A stretch of 64,000 nt of DNA. Source: Microvirga splendida (GTDB lineage: Bacteria; Pseudomonadota; Alphaproteobacteria; Rhizobiales; Beijerinckiaceae). Below the pieces are notes generated by a model. That model was given only the letters and a program-made list of their open reading frames with translations, was not told the DNA's origin and did no database searches. The position numbers and the translations under genes are program-made. This document shows, one piece after another, positions 36,951 through 52,277 of the stretch (within the stretch, counting starts at the first letter, position 1; every line of letters begins with the position of its first letter). Location of the stretch: assembly GCF_016427565.1 (NCBI RefSeq), contig NZ_JAELXT010000025.1, forward strand, positions 1 to 64,000, written 5' to 3'.

Positions 36951-38120
36951 ATGCCCCCTCATGACCTCATCCAGGCGGATCTATCATTCCTGCGCAACCT
37001 TCGCCAGGACTTACATGCGCATCCGGAGCTGGGTTTCGAGGAGGAAAGGACGAGCAGCATCGTCGCCACCCTGCTGGAGGAAGCCGGTCTTCGGGTGCAT
37101 CGCGGCTTAGGGAAGACGGGAGTCGTCGGCACGCTCCGGATCGGCAACGGCACGCGTACCATCGGCCTGCGCGCGGACATGGATGCCCTGGCCATGCCGG
37201 AGCAGGCGGAGCGGCCCTATAAGTCGAAACTTGCCGGCAAGATGCATGCCTGCGGACATGACGGGCACACGACCCTGCTGCTCGGAGCGGCTCGCCACCT
37301 CGCGAAAACGCGCAACTTTTCCGGCACGGTGCATTTCATCTTCCAACCTGCGGAGGAAGGCCGGGGCGGCGCGAAGAAGATGATCGAGGACGGCTTGTTG
37401 GATCTTTTCCCCTGCGATGCGGTCTATGGGCTGCACAACATGCCGGGACTGGCCGTGGACGAGATGGCCGTCACCGCAGGTCCGCAGCTCGCTTCGTCGG
37501 ACAGCTGGTTCGTGACCTTCAAGGGCGTCGGCACTCATGGCGCCAAGCCCCATCTCGGCAAGGACCCGATCACGGCAAGCGGTTACTTCCTCTCCGCCCT
37601 GCAGACGATCGTGGGGCGCGTGGTGAACCCGCTGCAGCCCGCGGTGGTGAGCGCCTGCTCGGTGCAGGCGGGCGATCCGCGGGCGCTCAACGTCATTCCG
37701 GATGTGGTTGAAATCGGCGGCACGGCGCGAGCCTATTCCGCCCAGGTGCGCGACCAGCTCGAAGCTGAAATCGAGCGGCTCGCCAGGGGCGTGGCTTCCA
37801 TGTTCGGTATCGAGGTGACCTACGAATTCCGCCGGCGCATCCCGCCGGTGATCAATCACCCGGACGCGACGGCCCGAGCGCTGAAGGCGGCGCAGGCCGC
37901 CTGCGGCTCAAAGGTCGTGACGAACTTCGAGCCCTCGACGGCCGGCGACGATTTCGCCTTCTTCGCTGAGGCGGCTCCAGGAGCGTATGTGTGGCTCGGA
38001 AACGGCCCCGCCGTCGACGGAGCGCTCCACCACAACACGGCTTACGACTTCAACGACGAAGCCATTCCAACCGGCGTCGCCTTCTGGGTGGCCCTCGTCG
38101 AGCAGGAACTCGGAGCATGA
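36951..38120 (+). CDS. M20 family metal-dependent amidohydrolase
   Basis: A 389-residue enzyme of the M20D aminoacylase/hippurate hydrolase group. Metal ligands are seen in GKMHACGHDGHTTLLLG and QPAEEGRGGAKKM, in the YGLHNMPG segment, and in the late GALHHNTAYDFND. It also has the dimerisation lid (GVGTHGAKPHLGKDPI). Such enzymes hydrolyse N-acyl amino acids or related amides; some bacterial members act on plant auxin conjugates. The substrate is not known. It stands alone, divergent from the phosphoribosyltransferase. Confidence 0.92.
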   Translation: MPPHDLIQADLSFLRNLRQDLHAHPELGFEEERTSSIVATLLEEAGLRVHRGLGKTGVVGTLRIGNGTRTIGLRADMDALAMPEQAERPYKSKLAGKMHACGHDGHTTLLLGAARHLAKTRNFSGTVHFIFQPAEEGRGGAKKMIEDGLLDLFPCDAVYGLHNMPGLAVDEMAVTAGPQLASSDSWFVTFKGVGTHGAKPHLGKDPITASGYFLSALQTIVGRVVNPLQPAVVSACSVQAGDPRALNVIPDVVEIGGTARAYSAQVRDQLEAEIERLARGVASMFGIEVTYEFRRRIPPVINHPDATARALKAAQAACGSKVVTNFEPSTAGDDFAFFAEAAPGAYVWLGNGPAVDGALHHNTAYDFNDEAIPTGVAFWVALVEQELGA

Positions 38121-38315: not shown

Positions 38316-39233
38316 TTAGACGCCGGACCGGGCCTTCCCTCTACTTCTAATCTTAAGCCACTGCTCGACGGGTGTTGCGAGGATCGTGGTTAGGACGACG
38401 ACGGCTGCGCCGAGACACAGCGACAATGATGGAACCTCGTCAAAGTAGACCCAGCCCGCAAAACCCGAGAAGATGATGGACAGGTATCCGATGGGCGCCA
38501 GAAGCCGCGCCTCCTGCTTCTGATAAGCCTGGAGCCAGCAATATTGCCCGACCTGGGCTAGGATCCCGATCAGGATGATGCTCGGTGCCTCGGTCCATGG
38601 AATTGGCACCCAGACGAGGGCTGCCGGAATCGATGTCAGGAGTGTGAGGCCCACCGTGTAGAAGAGCATCAGAACGACCGTGTCCTCGCCAGCGAGGCGA
38701 CGTGTCTGCACCACGGAGAGCGCGCCGAAGAACACGGAGCCGAAAGCAGCGAGCAGGCCGATGTTCCATGGAATCTCGTCCGGCCGCAGCATGGCAACAA
38801 CGCCGACGAAACCTAAGGCCGTGAGCGCGTAGCGGATTCGGCTCACCCTCTCCCCGAGCAGAACTGCCGCCATGGCCAGCAGGATCAGGGGGCGGGTATA
38901 GCCAATAGCGGTGACGAGGGCGAGCGGGAGCGCCGCGAAGGCCGCGAAGTTGCAGGTCAGCGCCGTGGAGTTGAAGGCGACGCGCACCAGATGGCCGCGG
39001 ATGTTCGACAGGTTCGCCAGCTTAGCACGATGGTGCCACATGAGCGGAGCCACGGCTAGGAACCCAACAAGAGAACGCAGGAAGACGAGCTGAACCGCCG
39101 GATAGGTGTCGCCCTTCGCCTTGACCATGGCCTGCATGATCGTGACCAGGCTCATGTCGAGCAGCAGCCACCCCGCGCTGCTCCACAGGGAGACTGCGGA
39201 GCCGGCGGATCGGCTTTCGGCTTCGACCGCCAT
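38316..39233 (-). CDS. DMT (EamA) family transporter
   Basis: A 305-residue membrane protein with ten predicted helices in two EamA repeats. Features: FLRSLVGFLAVAPLMWHH near the start, LVTAIGYTRPLILLAMAAVL and LLAPIGYLSIIFSGFAGW. Typical of the drug/metabolite exporter superfamily; substrate unknown. It is followed at five bases by the large PIG-L gene on the same strand, which lies upstream of it, so it may be the last gene of that operon. The 195-base gap 38121-38315 shows nothing. Confidence 0.88.
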   Translation of the reverse strand: MAVEAESRSAGSAVSLWSSAGWLLLDMSLVTIMQAMVKAKGDTYPAVQLVFLRSLVGFLAVAPLMWHHRAKLANLSNIRGHLVRVAFNSTALTCNFAAFAALPLALVTAIGYTRPLILLAMAAVLLGERVSRIRYALTALGFVGVVAMLRPDEIPWNIGLLAAFGSVFFGALSVVQTRRLAGEDTVVLMLFYTVGLTLLTSIPAALVWVPIPWTEAPSIILIGILAQVGQYCWLQAYQKQEARLLAPIGYLSIIFSGFAGWVYFDEVPSLSLCLGAAVVVLTTILATPVEQWLKIRSRGKARSGV

Positions 39234-39237
39234 AGGC

Positions 39238-41634
39238 TCAGGCAGGCTGAACGAGGTTTGCGAGCAGGCGGAACGCGCCGGGAACCAGCTTGTCCAGCTG
39301 ATGGTGCAGCACGAGCGATACGTGCGTGTGTCGCCCGCCCCCGATCCGGGCGGAGATCAGGGAGCCCCTGAGCGGGTTCTCGCCCGGATCGTTCAGGGCC
39401 AGCAGTTCCTCGTAGACGGCATCGTACTCCGCCGCGAAGTAGAGGCCCCTCTCCTTGTCCCAGCCCTGCCAGTCACCAGCTTCGATACGGTTCGGGGAGG
39501 TCAGCAGCGGATGCTCCGGCTTCAGAACAGTGACGGGAGCGGCGGGATCGGTCACGCGCCAGCGCAGCGAGGGCGATCCGATGACGAGGCGGCGCGGCGG
39601 CGTCGTGGCAGGGTCCCACGCATCGGTGGGGCGGTGGTAGAGCGTCACCAGATGCCCTCCCTCTTCCACGAAGCGGTGCAGCCGCGCGGTCGCACTCTGA
39701 AGGTCGCGCCTGAGGCCGAAGGCGAAGATGCCGACGACGATGGTCGTGAAGGCGGAAAGCGAGCCCGCCTTCAGTTCGGCCTCCCCGAGATCCGTCACGT
39801 CGAGGCCGAGACGGCGCAGATGGGCGCCGACATTGTCGCTCCCGCCGCCCACATAGCCGATCCGGGCTCCCGCCGGGAGGGCAACGTCGAGCGAGAGGAC
39901 CTTCAGCTCCGCCGGCGCGGCGATCGATGTCGGCCGAATGTGCGGATAGGCAATGGTCCGCACCGAACTCGCCGGCCTGCCGTTCACGATAGGAACGAGC
40001 GTTGCAATACCAGCGCCGCCCTCACGGGGTGGCACGGCAACCCAGTCGCTTCCCTCCTGGCGAACTGTCCAGCCCGCCGGTACCTGCCAATCCATCGGCT
40101 CGACTCCCACCGCTCTCACCCGGATACCGGAGGCAGGTTCTCCCGTCTTGATGAGTGCCACCGCAGGATCGAGAGAAAGGGAGTGACACGGTCTGATCTT
40201 CAGGGGCTCTTCCGGATCGAGATCGACCTCGATCCTGCGTTCTCCGACCTTTCCCGAGATGCGAAGGCCTGCCTCGCCGTTGCCGCCCAGCGGATCGAAG
40301 GACTCGGGATAGTTCCCGGTATGAGGCGCCGCTTCAGCAATCGCAATCTCATAATGCACGAGCCCTGGCTGGTCGTGCGTCGCGGTGGCGTCGACACCTG
40401 CCGGAAGGCGGGGCGCCGCCGTGACGTCGGAAAGCTCGCGCGTATCGATATGCACCTGCATGGCCAGACGCGCGCCTGGATGCGCCGATCCGGTGAACAC
40501 GGCCCGGGCCGTGTTGACGCTGGCTTCGAACAGAGCCACATCGATTTTCCGCAGCTTCCGGTCCAGGCGATGGCCCACTTGGCGCAGCGCCTCCTCGCCC
40601 AATCCTTTTCGAGCCTCTTCGATCCGACGCGCCGCACCGTTCAACGCTTCGACAATTCGGGAGCGGTTCGGGAAGGCCGCGATGGCGGCCTCGATCTGCG
40701 CCTGCGCGTCCCGCAGGGCCGTGGCCTCTGATCCAGTCACGCCCGGCATAGCCGCGATGTCAGCCAGCGTTGCGGGCATGTGATCGCGAATGTCATTCTC
40801 GGGCCCGGCTCCGCCGCCGGCCCGGACCTTCAGGTGCAGGCTCCACCGATCAACCGGCTTGTCCCGCCACACCCCCATGCCCTGGGAGGCGTGCGCGGCC
40901 CGCGACCATTCGCCGAGCTGCTTATAGGCAAGGCCCGTAACCTCGTCGGGGCCGGCAGCCTCAAGGCTCAGCGTCGCAGGCGGCGGGGGCACCTCGTCGT
41001 CATAGGCGTAACCTGCGCCCGACCATGCCGGGAGGTAATACTTGGACACCTGCCAGGGCCGAAGGCCCGACGCGGCATGCTCCGGAAAGGCTGACGGATC
41101 GGCCGCGAGAGCAAGCGCCGTCTCAGCTGCGCGGGTCATGGCGCGGTGGTGACCGTGCTGGCCCGGCACGTCCAGGAAGGTCGGGATGACGATGTCCGGA
41201 CGGTAGCGGCGGTAAGCGCGCACGAGGCGCTCGACGATGCGCTCCTCGCCCCAGCGACGGAGCGTGTCGTCTCCGTTCTTCGAGAATCCGAAATCGTGAA
41301 CCGGGTCGTCGGGACCATGGCCGAGCCACGCCACATCCGCATCCATGCGGCGCGCGGCCTCCTCCATCTCAGCCGTACGCAGCACGCCGAGAACGCCGCC
41401 CCGCTCGGGTCCGAGCGCATTCTGCCCTCCCTCACCCCGGGTGGAGCAGGCCACCACGACCCGCATGCCGTAGGCGAAGCGCAAGGCTGCCAGCATCCCG
41501 TTGATCTCGTCATCCGGATGCGCACCGGTGTTCATGACCGTCAGAACGGAAGACAGCCGGCTGAGGGCTCGATGCAGGCGCACGAGAGCCGGCTGATGGA
41601 CAGCGTGGGCCAAACGGCTGTGATCATCCAGCAA
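39238..41634 (-). CDS. Very large PIG-L (LmbE-like) deacetylase with extra C-terminal domains
   Basis: A 798-residue protein. The first 270 residues are a PIG-L/LmbE zinc deacetylase: the AHPDDE motif at residues 38-43 and the distal HGHHRAM metal-ligand motif. Most PIG-L enzymes stop there at about 220-300 residues. Here a middle beta-rich part (about 300-570) is followed by a ThuA/GATase-like domain (YVGGGSDNVGAHLRRLGLDV, then HRFVEEGGHLVTLYHRP). No signal peptide is visible. Such enzymes remove acetyl groups from amino sugars. It starts at TTG, overlapping the ROK gene by 11 bases; residues before the first in-frame alternative look conserved (LVRLHRALSRLSSVLTVMN), so the early start is preferred. 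Confidence 0.85.
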   Translation of the reverse strand: MLDDHSRLAHAVHQPALVRLHRALSRLSSVLTVMNTGAHPDDEINGMLAALRFAYGMRVVVACSTRGEGGQNALGPERGGVLGVLRTAEMEEAARRMDADVAWLGHGPDDPVHDFGFSKNGDDTLRRWGEERIVERLVRAYRRYRPDIVIPTFLDVPGQHGHHRAMTRAAETALALAADPSAFPEHAASGLRPWQVSKYYLPAWSGAGYAYDDEVPPPPATLSLEAAGPDEVTGLAYKQLGEWSRAAHASQGMGVWRDKPVDRWSLHLKVRAGGGAGPENDIRDHMPATLADIAAMPGVTGSEATALRDAQAQIEAAIAAFPNRSRIVEALNGAARRIEEARKGLGEEALRQVGHRLDRKLRKIDVALFEASVNTARAVFTGSAHPGARLAMQVHIDTRELSDVTAAPRLPAGVDATATHDQPGLVHYEIAIAEAAPHTGNYPESFDPLGGNGEAGLRISGKVGERRIEVDLDPEEPLKIRPCHSLSLDPAVALIKTGEPASGIRVRAVGVEPMDWQVPAGWTVRQEGSDWVAVPPREGGAGIATLVPIVNGRPASSVRTIAYPHIRPTSIAAPAELKVLSLDVALPAGARIGYVGGGSDNVGAHLRRLGLDVTDLGEAELKAGSLSAFTTIVVGIFAFGLRRDLQSATARLHRFVEEGGHLVTLYHRPTDAWDPATTPPRRLVIGSPSLRWRVTDPAAPVTVLKPEHPLLTSPNRIEAGDWQGWDKERGLYFAAEYDAVYEELLALNDPGENPLRGSLISARIGGGRHTHVSLVLHHQLDKLVPGAFRLLANLVQPA

Positions 41635-42877
41635 ATGCGATCTCCTCGTTTGTCGTTTCGCGGGCGGCTGCCTGAGCGGTGTCGAGCCGAGGCGTCATGG
41701 CTTCGAGGATCGGCAGCGCTGCGGCGCCGAGTGCCGCCGTGAACCGCCCCGTGCGGCCGTGGATCAGGCGTGCTTCGTTCCGGTTCCTGCGGCGCGCAAC
41801 GGACAGGGGCAGCGGCTGCATGGCTTTCGTGAGATCCTCCAGCAGACCTGGTGGCAAAGCACCGCCAATGACGACGGCCTCGGGGTCGAAGAGATTTTCG
41901 AGCATCGCAACCTGAGGCGCGAGATAACCGGCCGCCTCAGCGACCCATTCCGCGATGATCGGGTGCCGCTCGCGGTGTAACTGCTCCAGGCGCGTGTAGT
42001 CGACCCCCAGAATTCCTGCCGCGGAGAGTTTTTCGGCAAGAGCCTGCACGGAGGCATAGGCCTCAAGACAGCCGTGCTGGCCGCACGAGCAAAGGCGTCC
42101 GCCTCTTTCGATCAGCACATGCCCGATCTCGCCGGCATTGCCGTTAGCGCCCCGGTAAGGGCGCCCGTCGATCAGGATGCCGAGGCCGAGCCCTTGCCCG
42201 AAATAGATCAGGCAGAAGTTCTTGAGATCCTTGGCTGCACCGTGAAGGCGCTCCCCAACGGCTGCGGCGGTGGCATCGTTCTCGAGAGTGACGGGCGCTG
42301 CGAGCATTTGGCCGATGGTGGCCACTGCATCGAACTCTGCCCACCCTGACAGGGTCGTGGGGCCGACGGAGGTCATCCCCTCCACGTTGAACGGACCCGG
42401 CATCACCACTCCGACCCCGAGAAGCTGCGGCACGGGGGATTTCAGCTGAGCCTGTGCTGCGGCGATCTCGGCCTTGATGACGGGCAGCACCGTATCAGGA
42501 TCGTTGCGCGGGATTGAGACCGTGCGCTGCGCCCGGACGCGCCCCCCGATGTCAACCAGGAGCGTAGAGATATGGTCGGCCGCGATCTCGATGCCAGCCG
42601 TCATCCCGCCGTTCGGATTGACCGCGAACTGGATCGGCGGCAGTCCGCGCCCCGCCCTGAGCCGCCCGGTCTTGATGAGAAGGCCATCGGCGACGAGGTC
42701 ATCGACGATGTTCGAGACGGCTTGAGTGCTCAGATGCGCATGGCGCGAGATTTCGGTGCGCCCGACTGGACCAAGCTGGCGAACGACATCGAGCACCACG
42801 CGGCGGTTATGGGAGCGGTTGCGCTCCGGATTGCTGCCGATCGTCGAGCGTACCCCGGCCTTGGATTTTCTCGGCAT
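41624..42877 (-). CDS. ROK family transcriptional repressor
   Basis: A 417-residue regulator with an N-terminal MarR-like winged helix (EISRHAHLSTQAVSNIVDDL) and a ROK sugar-kinase-like domain. The zinc motif reads CSCGQHGCLE, and a glucokinase-type segment NGNAGEIGHVLIERGG is present. ROK repressors of this kind (NagC/Mlc/XylR) bind sugars or amino sugars. It is divergent from the ABC importer operon and overlaps the PIG-L gene, so it probably controls both. The ATG at 42877 was chosen over an upstream start at 42952 because the family begins near here (MPRKSKAG). Confidence 0.9.
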   Translation of the reverse strand: MPRKSKAGVRSTIGSNPERNRSHNRRVVLDVVRQLGPVGRTEISRHAHLSTQAVSNIVDDLVADGLLIKTGRLRAGRGLPPIQFAVNPNGGMTAGIEIAADHISTLLVDIGGRVRAQRTVSIPRNDPDTVLPVIKAEIAAAQAQLKSPVPQLLGVGVVMPGPFNVEGMTSVGPTTLSGWAEFDAVATIGQMLAAPVTLENDATAAAVGERLHGAAKDLKNFCLIYFGQGLGLGILIDGRPYRGANGNAGEIGHVLIERGGRLCSCGQHGCLEAYASVQALAEKLSAAGILGVDYTRLEQLHRERHPIIAEWVAEAAGYLAPQVAMLENLFDPEAVVIGGALPPGLLEDLTKAMQPLPLSVARRRNRNEARLIHGRTGRFTAALGAAALPILEAMTPRLDTAQAAARETTNEEIAFAG

Positions 42878-42916
42878 CTCCAAACTCCAGGCGGCAACAA
42901 TGACCCGCAGAATGGA

Positions 42917-42934
42917 ATAACTCAAGTGAATTAT
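42917..42934. promoter_or_regulatory. Candidate ROK operator
   Basis: ATAACTCA AG TGAATTAT is an inverted repeat (7 of 8 positions) in the AT-rich promoter gap between the ROK gene and the divergent transporter operon. A TTGACA -35-like hexamer lies just beside it at 42939-42944. Confidence 0.5.
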
Positions 42935-43041
42935 CTTATTGACAGCTCGCAAACTCTAAGGGAGCCTTGAGGTTGGATCGGCCACGAAGGCCGGCACCAG
43001 AGATGGATCGGCGCCCAGCGCCAGCAAGAACGGAGAGGGAC

Positions 43042-44295
43042 ATGCGTTTAGGTCATATGCTCGCGAGCGTTGCCTTGGGCTTCGCCACCCTGGCCTCCAC
43101 CGGCGCCAAGGCGGTCGAGATCGAGTACTGGCAATATGTGTTCGACACCCGCGTCAAGGCGATGAACCAGCTCATTGCCAAGTTCCAGGAGGCGAACCCG
43201 GACATCAAGGTCAAGCAGACCACTTTCCCCTATGCCGATTACCAGACCAAGGTGGCGGCCGCGATTCTGGCGGGCCAGGGACCCGACGTCGTGCAGCTGT
43301 TCTATGGCTGGACCGACAATTTCATCGCCGGCAAGATGATCCGCCCCTTGCGCGCAGAAGCCTTCCCGGCCGCTGAGATCGAGCGCGATTTCTTCCCGAT
43401 CGTGAGCGCCATGAAGCGCGGCAACGACTATTACGGCCTGCCGACCGCCGTGCGCTCGCTGGCCCTCTTCTACAACAAGAAGGCTTTCAAGGACGCGGGC
43501 CTCGATCCCAACAACCCACCGAAGACGCTCGAAGAGCTCGTGGCCGCCGCTGAAAAAACCGTGAAGCGCGACGGCAGTGGCAACATCATCTCCGCCGGCA
43601 TGACGCTCGACATGGGCGGGCAGGACCATCAATGGTGGCGCGAGGTGCTGATCCGTCAGTTCGGCGGCGTTCCTTACACGGAGAACGACACCAAGGTTGC
43701 CTATAACGATGAGGCTGGTCTGAAGGCGCTCACCTTCTACACGGACCTGCAGAAGAAGCACAAGGTCGGCCAAGCCGGATTCATGGATGAGGGACAGGCC
43801 GCCTTCCGCGCAGGCCTTGCCGCCATGACCATTGACGGCACCTTCCGCCTCGGCTCCTTCGGCACGATCAAGGCCTTCGATTGGGGCGTGACCGAGCTCC
43901 CCGCCAACGCCCAAGGCGTACGAAGCAACTATGCGAGCTACTTCGCCAACGCCATCACCACGAAGGCGGAAGGCGAGAAGCTGGCGGCGGCAGAGAAGTT
44001 CCTGAAATACGTCTCCTCCCCCGAGGCCATGAAAGTCTGGATGGAGGTCGTGGGCGAGCTCCCGGCCCGCCGTGAAGTGGCCCTGACGCCTGAGAATATT
44101 GCGCATCCGGTCTACGGCCCATTCCTCAAAGGCCTGGAATATGCGCATACCACTCTGTTCAAGGACGAGGCGGCCCAGCGTCAGGTGGCCATCGACATGG
44201 CCAATCGCGTCCTGATCGGCGGCGAGGATCCCAAGACCTCCCTGGCCAAGGCCGCGGAGGCCGAACAGGCGATCATCGACCGCGCCAAGCGCTAA
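43042..44295 (+). CDS. Sugar-type ABC transporter substrate-binding protein (family 1)
   Basis: A 417-residue secreted protein. The signal peptide LASVALGFATLASTGAKA is followed by VEIEYWQYVFDTRVKAMNQL, typical of the carbohydrate-binding SBP_bac_1 group. The closing segment has the family feature ASSPEAM-like (SSPEAMKVWMEVVGELPARR). The ATG at 43042 follows GGAGAGGG. First gene of a six-gene operon and probably the source of the substrate handled by the lyase, kinase and deacetylase beside it. Confidence 0.92.
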   Translation: MRLGHMLASVALGFATLASTGAKAVEIEYWQYVFDTRVKAMNQLIAKFQEANPDIKVKQTTFPYADYQTKVAAAILAGQGPDVVQLFYGWTDNFIAGKMIRPLRAEAFPAAEIERDFFPIVSAMKRGNDYYGLPTAVRSLALFYNKKAFKDAGLDPNNPPKTLEELVAAAEKTVKRDGSGNIISAGMTLDMGGQDHQWWREVLIRQFGGVPYTENDTKVAYNDEAGLKALTFYTDLQKKHKVGQAGFMDEGQAAFRAGLAAMTIDGTFRLGSFGTIKAFDWGVTELPANAQGVRSNYASYFANAITTKAEGEKLAAAEKFLKYVSSPEAMKVWMEVVGELPARREVALTPENIAHPVYGPFLKGLEYAHTTLFKDEAAQRQVAIDMANRVLIGGEDPKTSLAKAAEAEQAIIDRAKR

Positions 44296-44319
44296 TCCAC
44301 GCTCGCGAGGAAGCAGCGC

Positions 44320-45246
44320 ATGTCCGCCGTCTCACATCGGGAGGCCGCCTCCGGCGGCCTCTGGTCGAGGATGAGCCTCGGCCAGAAGCAGGTGATCTGG
44401 GCGTGGAGCTTTCTCGCGGTTCCCCTCGTCTTCTATGTGGTCATCCGCTTCTGGCCGACGTTCCAGGCCTTCTACCTGTCGGCGACGGACTGGACCATCA
44501 CCAAGCCCGCCGCCTTCGTCGGATTGGAGAACTACTGGAGGCTGTTTGAGGATCCGCTGTTCTGGCAGGTATTCCGCAACACCTTCATGTATTTGATCCT
44601 CGGCACCCCGATCAGCCTGCTGATCTCCTTCGTGGTGGCCTATTACCTCGACCGCGTGCGGTTCATGCACTCCTTCATCCGCGCGCTCTACTTCCTGCCC
44701 TTCCTCACCACCGCGGCGGCGATGGCTTGGGTCTGGCGCTGGTTCTACCAGCCCGTTCCCATCGGGGTGATCAACGATGTTCTCTCCAGCTTCGGCATCC
44801 CACAGCAGCCGTTCCTGCGCTCCACCTCTCAGGCACTGCCGGCCGTACTTGCGCCCGCGGTCTGGGCAGGCCTCGGCTTCCAGATCATCATCTTCCTCGC
44901 GGGGCTCAGGGCTATTCCCGTCACCTATTACGAAGCCGCGCGCATCGACGGCCTTTCGGAAGGCGCGATCCTGCGCAGGATCACGCTGCCGCTGCTCAAG
45001 CCGACCCTGGTGTTCCTGGTTGTTTTCTCGTCCATCGGCTTCCTGCGCATCTTCGATCAAGTCTACAACATCAACACGAACGATCCCGGCGGGCCGCTGA
45101 ACTCCACAAAGCCCCTGGTGCTGATGATCTATCAAACCGCCTTCAGCTCCTACGAGATGGGATATGCGGCTGCGCAGACCGTGGTGCTGTTCGTGATCCT
45201 TCTCGTGATCTCCCTCGTCCAGTTGCGCCTCATGAGAGACCGCTGA
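44320..45246 (+). CDS. Sugar ABC transporter permease (MalF/UgpA type)
   Basis: A 308-residue permease with six transmembrane segments. The EAA loop reads YYEAARIDGLSEGAILRRIT. It ends in TGATGA, overlapping the next permease by one base. Confidence 0.93.
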   Translation: MSAVSHREAASGGLWSRMSLGQKQVIWAWSFLAVPLVFYVVIRFWPTFQAFYLSATDWTITKPAAFVGLENYWRLFEDPLFWQVFRNTFMYLILGTPISLLISFVVAYYLDRVRFMHSFIRALYFLPFLTTAAAMAWVWRWFYQPVPIGVINDVLSSFGIPQQPFLRSTSQALPAVLAPAVWAGLGFQIIIFLAGLRAIPVTYYEAARIDGLSEGAILRRITLPLLKPTLVFLVVFSSIGFLRIFDQVYNINTNDPGGPLNSTKPLVLMIYQTAFSSYEMGYAAAQTVVLFVILLVISLVQLRLMRDR

Positions 45247-46097
45247 TGAAAGCCGCCGCATCCTCACAGGGCCTTGCGATGCCACATATCCGGCCAGGCC
45301 GGATCCTTGCCTGGACGCTCCTGTTCATCGGCGGCGTCGTCATGGTGACGCCCCTGCTCTTCATGCTCTCGACCTCACTAAAGGACGCCTCGCAGGTCTA
45401 TGACCTGCGCGTGATCCCCGAGGCGCCGACTCTCGACAACTACATCGAGATCCTCGGGGACGGGCGCTTCACCCGCTGGCTCATCAACTCGACCATCGTG
45501 GCGGTGATCGTCACCCTGTCGAACGTGTTTTTCGACAGCCTCGTCGGCTACACGTTGGCGAAGTTCCGCTTCCGCGGCCGTTACGTCGTCTTCATCGCGA
45601 TCCTGTCCACCTTGATGATCCCGACCGAGATGCTGGTCCTGCCCTGGTATCTCATGGCAAGCCAGTTCGGCTGGCTCGACAGCTACTGGGGAATCATGTT
45701 CCCCGGCATGATGACGGCGTTCGGCACATTTCTGATGAAGCAGTTTTTCGAAGGCGTGCCGGACGACTTCTTGGAGGCGGCGAGGATCGACGGGCTCAAC
45801 GAGTTCACCATCTGGTGGAAGATCGCCATGCCGCTCGTCACCCCTGCCCTCTCGGCGCTCGCCATCTTCACCTTCCTCGGCAATTGGACGGCGTTCTTCT
45901 GGCCTCTCATCGTGACCACGAGCGCCGAACTCTACACTCTGCCCGTCGGGCTCTCCAGCTTCGCGGTCGAGCAGTCGATTCAATGGGAGAAGATCATGAC
46001 GGGCGCGAGCATCGCAACCCTTCCCACCCTTATCATCTTCCTGTTCCTCCAGCGTTACATCGTCCGCGGCGTCATGCTCGCCGGGCTGAAAGGCTGA
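45246..46097 (+). CDS. Sugar ABC transporter permease (MalG/UgpE type)
   Basis: A 283-residue permease with six helices and the EAA loop FLEAARIDGLNEFTIWWKIA. The ATG overlaps the previous stop (TGATG); a much longer frame upstream runs through the first permease gene in another frame and is not real. Four bases separate it from the lyase gene. Confidence 0.92.
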   Translation: MKAAASSQGLAMPHIRPGRILAWTLLFIGGVVMVTPLLFMLSTSLKDASQVYDLRVIPEAPTLDNYIEILGDGRFTRWLINSTIVAVIVTLSNVFFDSLVGYTLAKFRFRGRYVVFIAILSTLMIPTEMLVLPWYLMASQFGWLDSYWGIMFPGMMTAFGTFLMKQFFEGVPDDFLEAARIDGLNEFTIWWKIAMPLVTPALSALAIFTFLGNWTAFFWPLIVTTSAELYTLPVGLSSFAVEQSIQWEKIMTGASIATLPTLIIFLFLQRYIVRGVMLAGLKG

Positions 46098-46101
46098 GCC
46101 G

Positions 46102-47610
46102 ATGACTGCGGGCCCCCACAACGACAGCTCCGTGTTTCCGAATCCGGTCTATAAGGAAACCGTTCTGCGCCCACTCTTCGACGGTGCGAAGGCTCATCAC
46201 GTCGAAGGCTTCCGCCTGATCGACAGAGCTCATCTCGTGATGCTGCACGAGACCGGCATCCTGACGCTCGAGCAGGCCCGTCCGATTGCCCAGGCGCTTG
46301 AGGCGATCGACCGTGAGGTGGACGTCAGCACCCTCACCTACACAGGAGAAGTCGAGGACTTTTTCTTCCTGATCGAGAAGGAATTGCGTGCGCGGCTCGG
46401 ACCCGATCTGGCAGGTCGCCTGCACACGGCGCGCTCGCGCAATGACATCGATCACACTCTGTTCAAGCTCGGTCTCAAGCATCGGATAGATCCCCTGCTG
46501 GAGCGCCTCGTCCGCCTTGCCGAGACCCTGGCGTCTGTCGCCGAGCGGGAGAGCGGTACGATCATCGTCGCCTATACCCACGGCCAGCCAGCGCAGCCGA
46601 CCGTCTTTGGACATTATCTTGCGGCGGTACTGGAAACCCTGCTGCGCGACATTGCGCGGCTGGAGGCGGCTCGTGACATTGTGGACCGCAGCCCCATGGG
46701 AGCCGCCGCCATCACCACGAGCGGCTTTCCCATCGACAGAGACCTGATGGCGCGGCTTCTCGGCTTCAGCCGGCCTCTGCAGAACTCCTATGGCTGTATC
46801 GCGTCGATCGACTATATTACCTCGACCTATTCGGCCATCGAGCTAGCCTTCCTGCATCTCGGCCGCTTCATTCAGGACCTCCAGTTCTGGACAAGCTTCG
46901 AGGTCGGCCAAGTGTATGTGCCCAACGCCTTCGTGCAGATCAGCTCGATCATGCCGCAGAAGCGCAATCCGGTCCCTATCGAGCACATGCGCCACCTTGC
47001 CTCCCAGACGGTCGGGCGGGCGCAGGCCATGCTCACGATCATGCACAACACGCCTTTCACCGACATGAACGACAGCGAGGGCGAAAGCCAAGGCTTCGGA
47101 TACGGCGCCTTCGAGAGCGGCGGGCGCGTGCTCGACCTGCTCACGACGCTGGTCCCGGCGCTGCGCATCAATCCCGACCGGGTGCGTCAGAACATCCGCC
47201 GCAGCTGCATCACGGTGACCGAACTCGCCGACAGCCTCGTCCGGCGTGAGGGGCTTTCGTTCCGTGAGGCGCACGAGATTGCCGCGGAGGTCTCCCGTGC
47301 CGTCGCGGCCATCGGAGGCGACATCGCAGCCGACGGTCATGAGGCCTTTCAGGAGGCTTTCGAGCGTAGTACAAAGCGCCCTTCGGCAATCGACAGGGCT
47401 CAATTCGCCGAGATTGTCTCGCCGGAGAACTTCGTCGCCGTGCGCGACCGTTTCGGCGGTCCGGCCCCAAGGGCGCTCTCACAGGCAATCGCTGGATATA
47501 ACCAAGAGATCTCCGATATTCGCAGCCGCATGCAGGAAGCCGCATACCGGGCCGATGCTGCCGGCCAGGATCTCCAGTTCCGTTTCAACGCACTTCTCGG
47601 AGCCCGCTGA
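46102..47610 (+). CDS. Argininosuccinate lyase-like enzyme of unknown substrate
   Basis: A 502-residue member of the fumarase/aspartase superfamily closest to argininosuccinate lyase. Signatures: HTARSRNDIDHT, VAYTHGQPAQPTVFGHY and SSIMPQKRNPVPIEH, the mobile loop with the catalytic serine. It differs from true ArgH at SPMGAAAITTSGFPIDRDLM (ArgH has a GSGA form) and in the TPFTDMNDSEGESQG segment. It lies inside a sugar importer operon with no arginine genes, so biosynthesis is unlikely. Family members split C-N bonds of N-succinyl adducts to give fumarate; the EDDS lyase of EDTA-degrading bacteria is a precedent. Role here: catabolic lyase, substrate unknown. Confidence 0.87.
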   Translation: MTAGPHNDSSVFPNPVYKETVLRPLFDGAKAHHVEGFRLIDRAHLVMLHETGILTLEQARPIAQALEAIDREVDVSTLTYTGEVEDFFFLIEKELRARLGPDLAGRLHTARSRNDIDHTLFKLGLKHRIDPLLERLVRLAETLASVAERESGTIIVAYTHGQPAQPTVFGHYLAAVLETLLRDIARLEAARDIVDRSPMGAAAITTSGFPIDRDLMARLLGFSRPLQNSYGCIASIDYITSTYSAIELAFLHLGRFIQDLQFWTSFEVGQVYVPNAFVQISSIMPQKRNPVPIEHMRHLASQTVGRAQAMLTIMHNTPFTDMNDSEGESQGFGYGAFESGGRVLDLLTTLVPALRINPDRVRQNIRRSCITVTELADSLVRREGLSFREAHEIAAEVSRAVAAIGGDIAADGHEAFQEAFERSTKRPSAIDRAQFAEIVSPENFVAVRDRFGGPAPRALSQAIAGYNQEISDIRSRMQEAAYRADAAGQDLQFRFNALLGAR

Positions 47611-48680
47611 TGGCGACCGTCGAAATTGATCGTCTCGTGAAGCGCTATGGGCAGACGACCGTCGTCCATGGAATCGACCTCTCGATCCAGGACGGCGAGT
47701 TCGTCGTGCTGGTCGGCCCATCCGGCTGCGGCAAGTCGACGACCCTGAGGATGATCGCAGGGCTTGAGGAGATCAGCGGCGGCGAGATCCGGATCGACGG
47801 ACGCGTCGTCAACGACCTCCAGCCCAGGGACCGGAACATCGCCATGGTGTTCCAGAACTATGCCATCTATCCGCACATGAGCGTCGCCGACAACATTGCC
47901 TTCGGCCTCTACCGCTCCAAGCTTTCAAAGAGCGAGAAGCGTCAGCGCGTCGAGCAGGCTGCCGAGACACTCGGCCTATCGCAGCTCCTGGATCGCCGCC
48001 CCTCGGCGCTGTCAGGCGGCCAACGCCAGCGCGTCGCCATAGGCCGGGCGATGGTTCGTGATCCGGCCGCGTTCCTGTTTGACGAGCCCCTTTCCAATCT
48101 CGATGCTCAACTGCGCACCCAGATGCGCATCGAGATCAAGCGGCTCCACCACAGGCTCGGCACGACCTCGGTGTTCGTCACGCATGATCAGGTCGAGGCC
48201 ATGACGATGGCCGACAGGATCGTGGTGATGCGCGACGGCAGGATCCTGCAGGTGGGCACACCCCTCGAGCTTTACGAGAATCCGGTCGATATATTCACCG
48301 CCCGGTTCATCGGCAGCCCGACGATGAACCTGCTGCCAGCCTCTCTCAAGAATGGTGGAGCGGATCTGACGCTCGGTGGGTCCGTTCAGGTTCCGCCGGC
48401 AGCCGCGACCAGCGCGGACATCCTGGTTGGCGCACGACCGCAGGATCTCGTCCCGAGCAGCCCCGGCGTGCCGGGACTGACTGTGTCAGGCACGGTGGCG
48501 GTTGTGGAAACCCTTGGCTCGGAGACCCTCGTGCACATCGAGAGCGCGGGCCAAACCATCATCGGCTCCGCGCCGGGTCGGCAGATCCCGCAGATCGGCG
48601 AGCATCTGACACTCCATGCCCCGGCAGAGCGCCTCTATTATTTCGACAAGGCCACCGAGAAAGCACTGGCAGCCCGATGA
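47610..48680 (+). CDS. Sugar ABC transporter ATPase (UgpC/MsmK type)
   Basis: A 356-residue ATPase: Walker A GPSGCGKST, Q-loop VFQNYAIYPHMSV, signature LSGGQRQRVAIGRA, Walker B FLFDEPLSNLDA and a C-terminal regulatory OB fold. The sequence FIGSPTMNLLPA marks the CUT1 carbohydrate class. Its ATG overlaps the lyase stop (TGATG), and it overlaps the kinase gene by four bases, so lyase and kinase genes frame the importer ATPase. Confidence 0.94.
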   Translation: MATVEIDRLVKRYGQTTVVHGIDLSIQDGEFVVLVGPSGCGKSTTLRMIAGLEEISGGEIRIDGRVVNDLQPRDRNIAMVFQNYAIYPHMSVADNIAFGLYRSKLSKSEKRQRVEQAAETLGLSQLLDRRPSALSGGQRQRVAIGRAMVRDPAAFLFDEPLSNLDAQLRTQMRIEIKRLHHRLGTTSVFVTHDQVEAMTMADRIVVMRDGRILQVGTPLELYENPVDIFTARFIGSPTMNLLPASLKNGGADLTLGGSVQVPPAAATSADILVGARPQDLVPSSPGVPGLTVSGTVAVVETLGSETLVHIESAGQTIIGSAPGRQIPQIGEHLTLHAPAERLYYFDKATEKALAAR

Positions 48681-49573
48681 CCGGAACGCTCACCGAGCGC
48701 GGCAAGGTCCTATGCCTTGGGCGGACCTATTGCGACATCATCTTCACGGGCCTGAGCGGGATGCCGGTGCTAGGGCGCGAACGGTTTGCCGGTAACGTGA
48801 CCATCGCAGCGGGCGGCGGCGCCTATATCACGGCAGCGCATCTCGCCTCGCTCGGGCGGCCGGCCGCCCTCCTCACCCGCCTTGGATCGGACCCACTGTC
48901 CCAGAGCCTCACTCCCGAGCTCGAATCCAGCGGGATCGATCTGTCGTTCGTCGAGCGGTCCCCAGACGCCGGACCTCAGCCGACGGTGGCCCTGGTCAGA
49001 GACGGGGAAAGAGCCTTCGTGTCCCGACGTGCCGGGGGCTCACGTCCGGCGACGCTGGAGCAGGCTCTCTCGGCCCCTGATGTCGCCCACCTGCACATCG
49101 CGGAATTTGCCACCCTAAAGGACACTCCGGAGGTGATCGCTTTGGCTCGCCGCTTCGGCCTGACGATCTCTCTTGACCCGAGTTGGGACGATGAACTGAT
49201 CCGCCGCGACTCGGACTTCTTCGAGATCTGCGCAGGTATCGACCTGCTGCTTCCGAACGTCGAAGAGGGAAAGGCGCTGACAGGAGAAAGCACGGACGAA
49301 GCCATTCTGCGAAGCCTGCGTGAGCGGTTTCCCTTGGTGGTGCTGAAGCGCGGCGAGCACGGTGCCATAGCCTCCTGCGGGTCGACCTGTGTTTCTGCCG
49401 AAGCCATTCGGGTGAATGTGGTCGACACGACAGGAGCGGGAGATGCCTTCAATGCCGGCTTTCTGCACTCCTGGCTCGGCACCTCGGATCTGGGGAAAAG
49501 CTTGGCGGCTGGGATCGAAGCGGGAGGGCTCTCAGTCCAGTCTGCAGGCGGAGCCCCACCGCGCGCCCCTTGA
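48677..49573 (+). CDS. PfkB family carbohydrate kinase
   Basis: A 298-residue ribokinase-like kinase. The N-terminal substrate region reads AGNVTIAAGGGAYITAAHLA, and the catalytic signature is VDTTGAGDAFNAGFL with the base Asp in GAGDAF. Family members phosphorylate ribose, fructose, adenosine, 2-keto-3-deoxygluconate or related alcohols; the acceptor is not identifiable. Last gene of the importer operon; it should act on a sugar product of the pathway. Confidence 0.9.
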   Translation: MTGTLTERGKVLCLGRTYCDIIFTGLSGMPVLGRERFAGNVTIAAGGGAYITAAHLASLGRPAALLTRLGSDPLSQSLTPELESSGIDLSFVERSPDAGPQPTVALVRDGERAFVSRRAGGSRPATLEQALSAPDVAHLHIAEFATLKDTPEVIALARRFGLTISLDPSWDDELIRRDSDFFEICAGIDLLLPNVEEGKALTGESTDEAILRSLRERFPLVVLKRGEHGAIASCGSTCVSAEAIRVNVVDTTGAGDAFNAGFLHSWLGTSDLGKSLAAGIEAGGLSVQSAGGAPPRAP

Positions 49574-49953: not shown

Positions 49954-52140
49954 TCATCCCGAAGATGTTGAAGCGTCAGCCCTGTGGCGGATCCGCTGGA
50001 TGTAGAGCTCGTAGTAATCGTCCAGGCCAAACTTCCTGCCTAGCTCCCTGCACAGGAGAATTGTCTCGAGAGCTCGCGGCCAGTCGCATCCCCGATAGGC
50101 TGCGAGCATGGTACCGTTTCGTTCGACCAACTCCACGAAGTCAGGACTCTCAACAAGATCAGCATGTCCCAGGATCGTGAAGATCCGCTCCGGATCGCGC
50201 TTTCCCCTTACCTGCAGATGATCGACCTCGAGCACGGCGAAATGAGAACGCACAGCCTGGGCGGTTTTCTCGCCGATGAGAATAGGAACCCCATACTGCT
50301 TGGTGAGCTCCTCGAGACGGGATGCGAGATTGACCGTGTCGCCCAGGACCGAGTAGTTGAAGTGGAGATCGGATCCGAAGTTGCCGACAACGCAGAGGCC
50401 GGTGTTCAACCCTATCCCGACTCTGAGCGGCGGGATCGCCTGATCACCATCGACGTTCCTCCGATGCTGTTCATTGAGGTCCCTAAGGCTGGCCAGCATG
50501 GCAAGTGCTGCCTCGCATGCGTTCACCTCATGATCGGGGTCGGCGAGCGGAGCGTTCCAGAAGGCCATGATCGCGTCGCCCATGTATTTGTCGATCGTCC
50601 CACGACGTCTCATGATATCCCGTGTCAGCGGCGTAAAGAGCCGATTGATCAGCGCTGTCAGTCCCTGCGGATCATCCTTGTAGACTTCGGAAATGGCCGT
50701 AAAGCCGCGCACGTCCGAGAAGAGGACGGTGAGCTCTCGCTGTTCTCCGCCGAGGGTTAGCCTCTCCGGCGATTGTGCCAGCTGCTCGACCAGATCGGGC
50801 GAGAGATACTGGTTGAAGGCCGATCTGATCCGATAGCGATCTGCGGAAACGCTCACATAATTGGTGCACACGAGAACGGCATAGATCAAGAAGCTCGAGA
50901 GCAAGGGGAAGGTGTAATCGATGAGAAGATCGAGACCTGTGAAGCAGTACCACGACACCCCCAATGTCACCGCGGCAGTGATGCCTCCGAGGGCGAAGAG
51001 AGTTCCGGCATTCACTTTTGGAGCCAGGACGATCAGTAGCACGCTCATCAGCGCCGTGAGCACAAGCTCGATGAAGGCTGTGTAGCTCGGCCGACTCAAG
51101 GTCGATCCCGTCAGGGCGCTCTCCAGGAGCTGGGCATGCAACTCTACGCCTGGCAGCGCCGGGTGTACGGGGGTGACCTTAAGATCGAGAAGACCGGCGG
51201 CCGAAGTTCCGATGAGCACCATTTTTCCTGCCAAGGCGTCGGTGGGTGCTCTGCCGCGTAGAAGATCGATCGCAGGGATGTATCTGCTCAGGTTGAGGGA
51301 GGAGTAATGAAGCCATACCCGGCCCTTTCCATCCGTTGGGATCTCGAAAGTGCCGACACCGACGCTTCGAACCCCGCTCGGGTCCGTTTTGACGAGAATG
51401 GCGTCCGATCCGGTGGCGACCCTCAACATCTCGAGGGACAGGGATGGAACGATAGTTCCGCCAGCCAGTGCGATGATCGGGACTCGACGTACGACACCAT
51501 CCCGGTCGGGAGCAACCGAGAACATGCCATGTCCTCGGGCGGCTTCGTCGAGAACAGGAAGGTTCTGCAGCAGGTGCGGAAACTCGACTAGGAAGAGACG
51601 CGGGTCAGGCCCGAGGGCTGCGATTCCCGTCTGGCCCCCTGCCTGACCGGTGGGCACCGCCCCTGAGACGCGATAGCCCGAACGTCCGAGCACAACTGTG
51701 GACGCGCGGATGGCATCGGCAAAGGTGGTGTCGTTGCTGGGCAGGTGCCGGAGCTTCTCGCGTGTGGCGTCATCCAGGCCTTGAAATGCCTCGGCCGCGA
51801 CCTCCGGCGAGCTGCGATCGGGCTCCGGAAAGAGCACATCGAAGCCGATAACCGTTCCACCCCCTTCGGCGATCTTCGCAACCATCTCGGCCATGATCGT
51901 GCGCGGCCATGGCCATTGCCCCAGAGCCCGCAGACTCTGCTCGTCGATATCTACGATCGCCACGCGGCCCTGCCGCTCGACGCGCGGATAGACGAGTTGA
52001 TAGATATCGAGCGACTTCAGACGAATAGCCTCAACGGGCCCCGGATCCAGGACCCGGAGCACCAGCAGGCCCACGAGAAGCAGGAGACCGACGACCCGGC
52101 CGGTCCCGAAGCGCTGCGTTCTATTCAGAATGGAGGCCAT
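49954..52140 (-). CDS. CHASE2-domain adenylate/guanylate cyclase
   Basis: A 728-residue membrane cyclase. One N-terminal helix (VVGLLLLVGLLVLRVLDPG), a large extracytoplasmic CHASE2 sensor (AIVDIDEQSLRALGQWPWPR, then VIGFDVLFPEPDRSSPE), two or three helices near residues 355-440, and a class III cyclase domain. Metal-binding Asp residues lie in LFSDVRGFTAISE and DKYMGDAIMAFWNAP; the transition-state region is LGDTVNLASRLEELT. CHASE2 senses an unknown envelope signal. It lies 137 bases downstream of the FecR/vWA gene on the same strand. Confidence 0.93.
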   Translation of the reverse strand: MASILNRTQRFGTGRVVGLLLLVGLLVLRVLDPGPVEAIRLKSLDIYQLVYPRVERQGRVAIVDIDEQSLRALGQWPWPRTIMAEMVAKIAEGGGTVIGFDVLFPEPDRSSPEVAAEAFQGLDDATREKLRHLPSNDTTFADAIRASTVVLGRSGYRVSGAVPTGQAGGQTGIAALGPDPRLFLVEFPHLLQNLPVLDEAARGHGMFSVAPDRDGVVRRVPIIALAGGTIVPSLSLEMLRVATGSDAILVKTDPSGVRSVGVGTFEIPTDGKGRVWLHYSSLNLSRYIPAIDLLRGRAPTDALAGKMVLIGTSAAGLLDLKVTPVHPALPGVELHAQLLESALTGSTLSRPSYTAFIELVLTALMSVLLIVLAPKVNAGTLFALGGITAAVTLGVSWYCFTGLDLLIDYTFPLLSSFLIYAVLVCTNYVSVSADRYRIRSAFNQYLSPDLVEQLAQSPERLTLGGEQRELTVLFSDVRGFTAISEVYKDDPQGLTALINRLFTPLTRDIMRRRGTIDKYMGDAIMAFWNAPLADPDHEVNACEAALAMLASLRDLNEQHRRNVDGDQAIPPLRVGIGLNTGLCVVGNFGSDLHFNYSVLGDTVNLASRLEELTKQYGVPILIGEKTAQAVRSHFAVLEVDHLQVRGKRDPERIFTILGHADLVESPDFVELVERNGTMLAAYRGCDWPRALETILLCRELGRKFGLDDYYELYIQRIRHRADASTSSG

Positions 52141-52277
52141 GATCGTCCTTCCGCGAGAACAGGGTCTCGGGCCAGCGCAGGATCGTGGCAGAACCAATCG
52201 AATCTCGACCTTGTGCTCCGCTTGACGAAACTGTCATGGAGCGGGCTCAAGAGAGACGGCGGTCGCAGCATGCTTCC

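Follow-up and report, generated by a model that had tools for sequence, protein, structure and literature searches.

What compound is taken up and broken down by the products of two divergent operons of Microvirga splendida, in which a sugar importer, a large PIG-L/LmbE-type amidase, a relative of argininosuccinate lyase (ArgH) and a sugar kinase are encoded around a single repressor, is the question raised by the locus described here. It lies in a stretch of 64,000 nucleotides (the window; contig NZ_JAELXT010000025.1, positions 1 to 64,000), to which coordinates refer unless a locus is named; L-, G- and C-numbers denote fetched loci, genomes and contigs of the M. splendida genome itself, respectively. 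Our analyses support, as the probable general reading, an inducible catabolic operon for an amino-sugar conjugate that is served by a fumarate-releasing lyase. The substrate would join an N-acyl-glucosamine to a four-carbon dicarboxylate, and we tentatively propose N-acetylglucosamine (GlcNAc)-malate or bacillithiol (cysteinyl-glucosaminyl-malate, Cys-GlcN-malate) and its derivatives as the most likely compounds of this kind. Searches of an open-licence library found no paper describing this gene set.

All the parts that the first-pass annotation of the window had placed at 39238-49573 were recovered there by family profiles, and the architecture it had described, two divergent operons with one gap and one repressor, is confirmed. 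The minus-strand operon encodes an EamA/DMT-family transporter, probably an exporter (38316..39233; PF00892, 81.1 bits), the PIG-L protein of 798 aa (39238..41634; PF02585, 70.1 bits) and a ROK-family repressor with an N-terminal helix-turn-helix (HTH) (41624..42877; PF00480, 174 bits; NagC model, 123.1 bits for a cut-off of 650). On the plus strand, a CUT1-type solute-binding protein (SBP; 43042..44295; SBP_bac_1/8; UgpB model, 101.3 bits for a cut-off of 411) is followed by two ABC permeases of the BPD_transp_1 family (44320..45246 and 45243..46097), the ArgH-like lyase of 502 aa (46102..47610), a MalK/UgpC-type ATPase (47610..48680; PRK11650, 487.7 bits, above the cut-off of 432) and a PfkB-family sugar kinase, predicted to act on glucosamine (48677..49573; PF00294, 133.9 bits). 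The SBP, the two permeases and the MalK-type ATPase with its TOBE domain make up a complete CUT1-type importer, and the repressor carries PF00480 at residues 119-413 together with a MarR-type HTH at about 52-96 that scores below the cut-off (numbered from the TTG start).

On sequence grounds, the start of the ROK gene was re-set from TTG 42952 to ATG 42877 and that of the SBP gene from TTG 42967 to ATG 43042, leaving an intergenic gap of 164 bp (42878-43041). This gap holds a conserved 25-bp element on the plus strand, AATAACTCAAGTGAATTATCTTATT (42916-42940), a probable ROK operator that runs into a TTGACA -35-like box (42939-42944); a simple scan of the gap did not recover a full sigma-70-type promoter. 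The element is near-identical in 15 of 15 aligned Microvirga gaps. In a comparison for which 96 loci were entered and 94 yielded a gap, its 15-bp core ATTATNTTATTGACA was present in 74 of the 94 other gaps, in 15 distinct versions and against a shuffle expectation of 0.000, and was missing from the other 20, which belong to the more distant loci (L080-L087, L194, L195 and others). The element is a single site in the M. splendida genome at up to 3 mismatches, and this fits a local repressor.

Conservation of the gene set was assessed in 119 fetched loci (20 from the order, 19 from the genus and 80 named), nearly all of them from Hyphomicrobiales, the named loci being the best 80 of at least 408 confirmed relatives. 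Named and unnamed loci derive partly from the same genomes, so that the 119 are not independent cases, and not every named locus belongs to the order (L185 is from Pseudotabrizicola); among the named matches listed, Microvirga is nearest, with the M. soli PIG-L at 93% to that of the window. Seven core genes (PIG-L, ROK, SBP, both permeases, lyase and ATPase) occur together in 116 of the 119 loci, the exceptions being L148, which has no ROK gene, L182, a 9.8-kb contig, and L157 (Devosia limi), in which PIG-L and DMT are present and no cassette ROK, SBP, permease or lyase genes were found within the 22 kb fetched. Counting the genes present, their order is kept in every locus (119/119); L077 and L079 failed the strand test, since in both the best match to PIG-L is a neighbouring second copy on the opposite strand. 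The gene arrangement is not a product of chance.

The two outermost genes are less constant. DMT is a frequent and not a universal member (11/20 order, 14/19 genus and 59/80 named loci), and PfkB was found in 11 of the 20 order loci, with four more just past the fetched edge (L262-L264, L266), in 19/19 genus loci and in 72/80 named ones; no PfkB gene adjoins that of the ATPase in L080, L081, L082 and L085. Among 37 genomes of the genus, M. splendida included, 32 have a lyase match at E <= 1e-90, and none was obtained in 24 genomes that each represent another family of the order. For the large PIG-L, 25 of the 397 genomes searched in the order, again including M. splendida, gave a match at E <= 1e-60. 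The genes grouped together in the first pass are thus co-conserved across Hyphomicrobiales and, in part, beyond this order.

The lyase was analysed by family profiles, a tree and a structural model. It carries the motifs of the aspartase/fumarase superfamily (C1, SRND at S112-D115; C2, TH at T159 and H160; C3, SSxMPQKxNP at S281-P290, with SSIMPQKRNP as the loop in the window), which are invariant in 21 aligned sequences and kept across the clade in the tree, one Deinococcus sequence having SH. With ArgH it shares the fold, these motifs and, as expected, the fumarate chemistry; among solved structures, Thermus ArgH is the closest to it in sequence, and it passes the NCBIfam argH cut-off (TIGR00838; 311.4 vs 279.5), below which its relatives from Deinococcus ficus (265.6) and D. 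deserti (264.1) remain. In contrast to ArgH, it falls in a separate clade, is located in an importer operon and has lost the active-site segment KGLP(L/F)AY-x-(K/R)D. In a 24-row tree, 12 alphaproteobacterial and 7 Deinococcus lyases form one clade (support 99/96) from which both ArgH-like proteins of M. splendida and relatives from Cupriavidus, Haladaptatus and genome G868 are excluded. All 19 clade members show HN-x-P[FY]-x-D-[MIV]-ND in place of the ArgH segment (near residues 314-324; HNTPFTDMND at 315-324 in the window), where the two ArgH-like proteins hold KGLPLAYSKD and KGLPFAYNRD; the G868 relative, outside the clade, has part of this signature (KNTAFGDVND), which speaks against its being exclusive. 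Since the catalytic motifs are kept and the ArgH segment is replaced, fumarate chemistry with a different leaving group would be expected, and D321 and D324 might, as a guess of ours, contact a sugar amine.

As a ground for rejecting its reading, the first-pass annotation had named the case that the lyase is an active ArgH and the sole argH of the genome. Two more ArgH-like genes exist, one on contig C3 coding for a 466-aa protein that, from its sequence, reads as the housekeeping ArgH, and another on C32 beside an amino-acid permease gene; together with the separate clade and the altered motif, they rule out the lyase as the genome's own ArgH. By fold (model pLDDT, the predicted local distance difference test score, of 88.9), Foldseek placed ethylenediamine-disuccinate (EDDS) lyase closest (PDB 6g3d/6g3i; E 5.7e-26, template modelling score 0.83) and ArgH next. 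Identity to EDDS lyase is 28%, and the position of its engineered D290, an amine-side residue named in the title of 6rx8, is V291 in the window lyase according to a profile alignment.

The second enzyme, the PIG-L protein, consists of a PIG-L domain (about 28-281), a beta-sandwich part and a C-terminal GATase1/ThuA-like domain (about 588-798). Residues H39, D41, D42, H160, H162 and H163 are invariant in 16 aligned sequences, the window included, and supply the HxDD motif and the third histidine ligand tabulated for LmbE-like enzymes, which, among those reviewed in the same source, act on an N-acetyl- or N-acyl-glucosamine core (PMC4101496). The closest folds to its model (pLDDT 84.1) are MshB (Z 21.5) and LnmX (Z about 21), BshB also being listed (Z 18.2), and the C-terminal part matches STM3548 (Z 16.8), the GATase1-like 3rht (Z 15.2) and the ThuA-like 1t0b (Z 13.4). 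It resembles BshB/Bca and MshB/Mca in the PIG-L fold, in the HPDD motif with a third histidine and in the expected hydrolysis of an N-acyl-glucosamine amide, and differs from them in being a large three-part protein whose proposed role is in breakdown and not in synthesis. Its scores lie below the cut-offs of the bacillithiol amidase models (TIGR04000, 21.3 vs 195.25; TIGR04001 was not listed at E 0.001) and likewise below that of TIGR03446. A second large PIG-L gene adjoins the cassette on the opposite strand in L075, L076, L077 and L079; the L076 copy shows by eye a Tat-like signal at its start, which suggests a periplasmic version, and the L077 copy stands beside a gene reading as a cysteine-synthase-like, pyridoxal phosphate-dependent enzyme (L077:13069-14196).

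Relatives were also looked for outside the order. Class- and phylum-wide searches matched 6 of 398 and 13 of 385 genomes, with M. splendida in both and one further genome shared, yielding 16 further lyase loci, one of which (G337) belongs to Microvirga's own family. PIG-L adjoins the lyase in 11 of the 16 and not in L193, L210, L217, L218 or L219; G815, the genome of L210, has it on a separate contig with a glucokinase gene as its neighbour (L234), and in G868 a large PIG-L was not found at E <= 1e-20. The lyase and PIG-L genes point away from each other in three genomes of one genus (L211-L213), where the adjacent genes read from sequence as a Dpp-type peptide transporter and a CUT1 importer is not seen; the L212 stretch is cut by a contig end. 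As these loci keep lyase and PIG-L without a sugar importer, both enzymes look like the core of the system, and we regard their pairing as the best evidence that they act on one substrate. Gamma-glutamyltransferase-like genes were also seen, one near the lyase operon without PIG-L of L193 (L193:1580-3244) and one near the detached PIG-L of G815 (L234:7410-8942).

A plasmid search matched 41 records, of which 15 regions, two of them without annotation, were examined. Seven Deinococcus records carry lyases at 34-36% identity, and in four of these (D. ficus, D. deserti, D. wulumuqiensis and D. actinosclerus) the order is ROK, lyase, SBP, the two permeases, a small PIG-L and PfkB. The small PIG-L proteins match MshB best (D. 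ficus, 160.6 bits; D. deserti, 145 bits; cut-off 224.35). Three of the four records, all except D. deserti, have an extra gene after the lyase, which is a large PIG-L with NEW3 and CBM9 domains in D. ficus and is annotated as PIG-L in D. wulumuqiensis and as hypothetical in D. actinosclerus.

That the conjugate contains an amino sugar, as the first pass had suggested, finds support in genes next to the cassette in some lineages (NagB-II and NagK named by profile, NagA and MurQ from sequence). NagB-II-like genes lie near three of the 16 outside loci: in L193 one overlaps the end of PfkB, L194 has a cluster reading nagA, nagB2, gntR, nagK and murQ about 1 kb away, and L217 has NagB-II-, NagA- and NagK-like genes around it and neither PIG-L nor PfkB, which fits a route via GlcNAc instead. 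On the PfkB side, such a gene is near one of 19 order loci (L255), a nag-type cluster standing beside the cassette in L255/L235. By a rough estimate, assuming about one gene per genome, 0.2-0.3 chance neighbours would be expected in these 35 loci, where four were seen. NagB-II-like genes are present at E <= 1e-50 in 17 of 18 chosen cassette genomes, that of M. splendida being in a separate nag-type cluster on C11. ROK-family proteins occupy the place of PfkB in L185 (a 354-aa protein after the ATPase, either kinase or regulator), L216 and the Roseomonas locus L243, in which a NagB-II-like gene is also found directly after the ATPase. The glucokinase gene beside PIG-L in L234 is a further hint of an amino sugar. 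From the nag-type neighbours in a minority of lineages and the replacement of PfkB by ROK proteins, the product is probably glucosamine or GlcNAc. Alphaproteobacterial GlcNAc/nag operons resemble the cassette in the CUT1-type importer, the sugar kinase and the NagB-II end point, and are physically adjacent to it in several lineages, whereas in the cassette a PIG-L step and a predicted fumarate-releasing lyase step would precede that of the kinase, and the regulator and operator are separate ones.

Bacillithiol is Cys-GlcN-malate, and in its synthesis, as outlined in PMC4360819, BshA joins UDP-GlcNAc and malate, BshB deacetylates the product and cysteine is added. The operon would run this synthesis backwards, the malyl unit leaving as fumarate. 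The CUT1-type importer would bring the conjugate in, PIG-L would hydrolyse the amide on the glucosamine nitrogen to release acetate or cysteine, the lyase would eliminate the malyl unit as fumarate, cleaving a C-O bond, and set glucosamine free, and PfkB, or elsewhere perhaps a ROK kinase, would form glucosamine-6-phosphate for conversion to fructose-6-phosphate by NagB-II; repression of the two operons would be exerted by the ROK protein at a single operator, and export of the freed acyl part may fall to the DMT protein. A substrate that calls for an N-acyl-glucosamine amidase and a fumarate-releasing lyase and ends in glucosamine is what GlcNAc-malate and bacillithiol would each provide. BshC was matched in none of 18 chosen cassette genomes (the control was matched in 3 of 14 genomes), which would imply an external source of the compound, and as bacillithiol and its derivatives are predicted, in the account of PMC6282198, to be the most widely distributed thiols, such a food source is plausible. 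Put in full, the proposal, which we advance with well under even confidence, is of a first catabolic pathway for bacillithiol-type thiols, in which non-makers import bacillithiol or GlcNAc-malate and an ArgH-descended lyase splits the sugar-malate ether into fumarate and glucosamine, with a related version in Deinococcus. This genus includes a bacillithiol maker.

Several observations weigh against this proposal. To our knowledge, no member of the lyase superfamily breaks a sugar ether into fumarate. GalB, a 4-carboxy-2-hydroxymuconate hydratase, equals BshB as a match to the PIG-L model (Z 18.4 vs 18.2), and because it fits as well, the fold is no proof of a glucosamine amide; in a profile search of solved structures, which listed LnmX, MshB and diacetylchitobiose deacetylases, BshB fell short of E 0.01. 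Every NagB-II match is under its NCBIfam cut-off, the four loci named above are the only ones with such neighbours among the 16 outside loci and, on the PfkB side, the 19 order loci. No NagB-II-like gene was found in the window, nor in what was fetched of the 19 genus loci and of the 80 named ones, for which the stretches mostly end about 2 kb past PfkB. Lyase operons occur without a large PIG-L at E <= 1e-20 in genomes G337, G990 and G985 (70% complete), and the remaining three Deinococcus records show only lyase and importer, an absence that is weak because plasmid gene tables are incomplete.

Among the alternatives, the first-pass proposal of an amino sugar with an aspartyl or succinyl group on its nitrogen, from which PIG-L would remove another acyl group and the lyase, cleaving a C-N bond, would free fumarate and the amino sugar, is in our view rather unlikely. 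The best-known members of the superfamily cleave C-N bonds, EDDS lyase, the closest fold and a non-biosynthetic ArgH relative, cleaves N-substituted aspartates, and nag-type neighbours are compatible with any amino sugar. However, we know of no common natural compound of such make-up, and nothing in the examined neighbourhoods indicates one; a malyl glycoside (GlcN-malate, bacillithiol) was judged the better fit to the two-enzyme core, since such a compound is known from nature and its amide is processed by members of the PIG-L family.

An Amadori compound (fructosyl-aspartate or -asparagine), from which the lyase would free fumarate and a fructosamine to be phosphorylated by PfkB, is improbable. 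It draws on L128 and L129, where fructoselysine deglycase-like (72.2 bits, cut-off 430) and fructoselysine kinase-like (167.5, cut-off 247) genes lie about 1-2 kb from PIG-L, a finding that also counts against the bacillithiol proposal, and on a weak match of the window PfkB to the fructoselysine kinase model (60.4 bits). Yet the two loci are near-identical in these genes (98%) and therefore represent one event, the deglycase genes come with a separate kinase and with what reads from sequence as a GntR regulator of their own, PIG-L would have no role and the NagB-II neighbours would be left unexplained. More doubtful still is the breakdown of a glycoasparagine (GlcNAc-Asn) or other glycopeptide remnant, which holds GlcNAc and a four-carbon amino acid and would suit the peptide-type transporter genes at L211-L213 and the nag-type neighbours elsewhere; elimination at asparagine, however, would free ammonia and leave fumaramide on the sugar, and no finishing enzyme is present. 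Finally, a redundant ArgH trapped in a sugar operon, as the argH cut-off, the Thermus relative and the labels of plasmid records (22 of 27 alphaproteobacterial rows name lyase relatives argH or argininosuccinate lyase, the rest being unannotated) might suggest, is very improbable in view of the two other ArgH-like genes, the separate clade, the lost motif, the tight operon conservation and the related operon in a second phylum.

If the bacillithiol proposal is true, a fate would be named for the class of bacterial thiols whose distribution is predicted to be the widest, the ArgH superfamily would gain a new reaction, and the argH label that the current NCBIfam cut-off gives to the lyase, and database records to its relatives, would be corrected. 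Even with another substrate, the cassette is a well-bounded and widespread operon with two coupled enzymes.

Some neighbours of the cassette were recorded in their own right. A sarcosine/N-methyl-amino-acid (MSOX-type) oxidase gene directly follows DMT in two loci (L076:10156-11376, with PRK11259 at 453.6 bits for a cut-off of 257, and L157:13252-14418); if the cells use N-methyl-bacillithiol, N-methyl-cysteine could be a substrate of such an oxidase. Eight Agrobacterium-type copies of the cassette have neighbours that read from sequence as sulfatase-like and GH4-like, which were discounted as peculiar to one clade. The hydantoinase-like neighbours of L219 were discounted for another reason, namely that the lyase there, from G868 (35%), falls outside the lyase clade. 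In the window itself, a gene reading as an M20-type amidohydrolase lies near the cassette (36951-38120), and downstream of PfkB, on the other strand, lies an apparent adenylate/guanylate cyclase gene whose product would have a sensor part at its N terminus (49954-52197).

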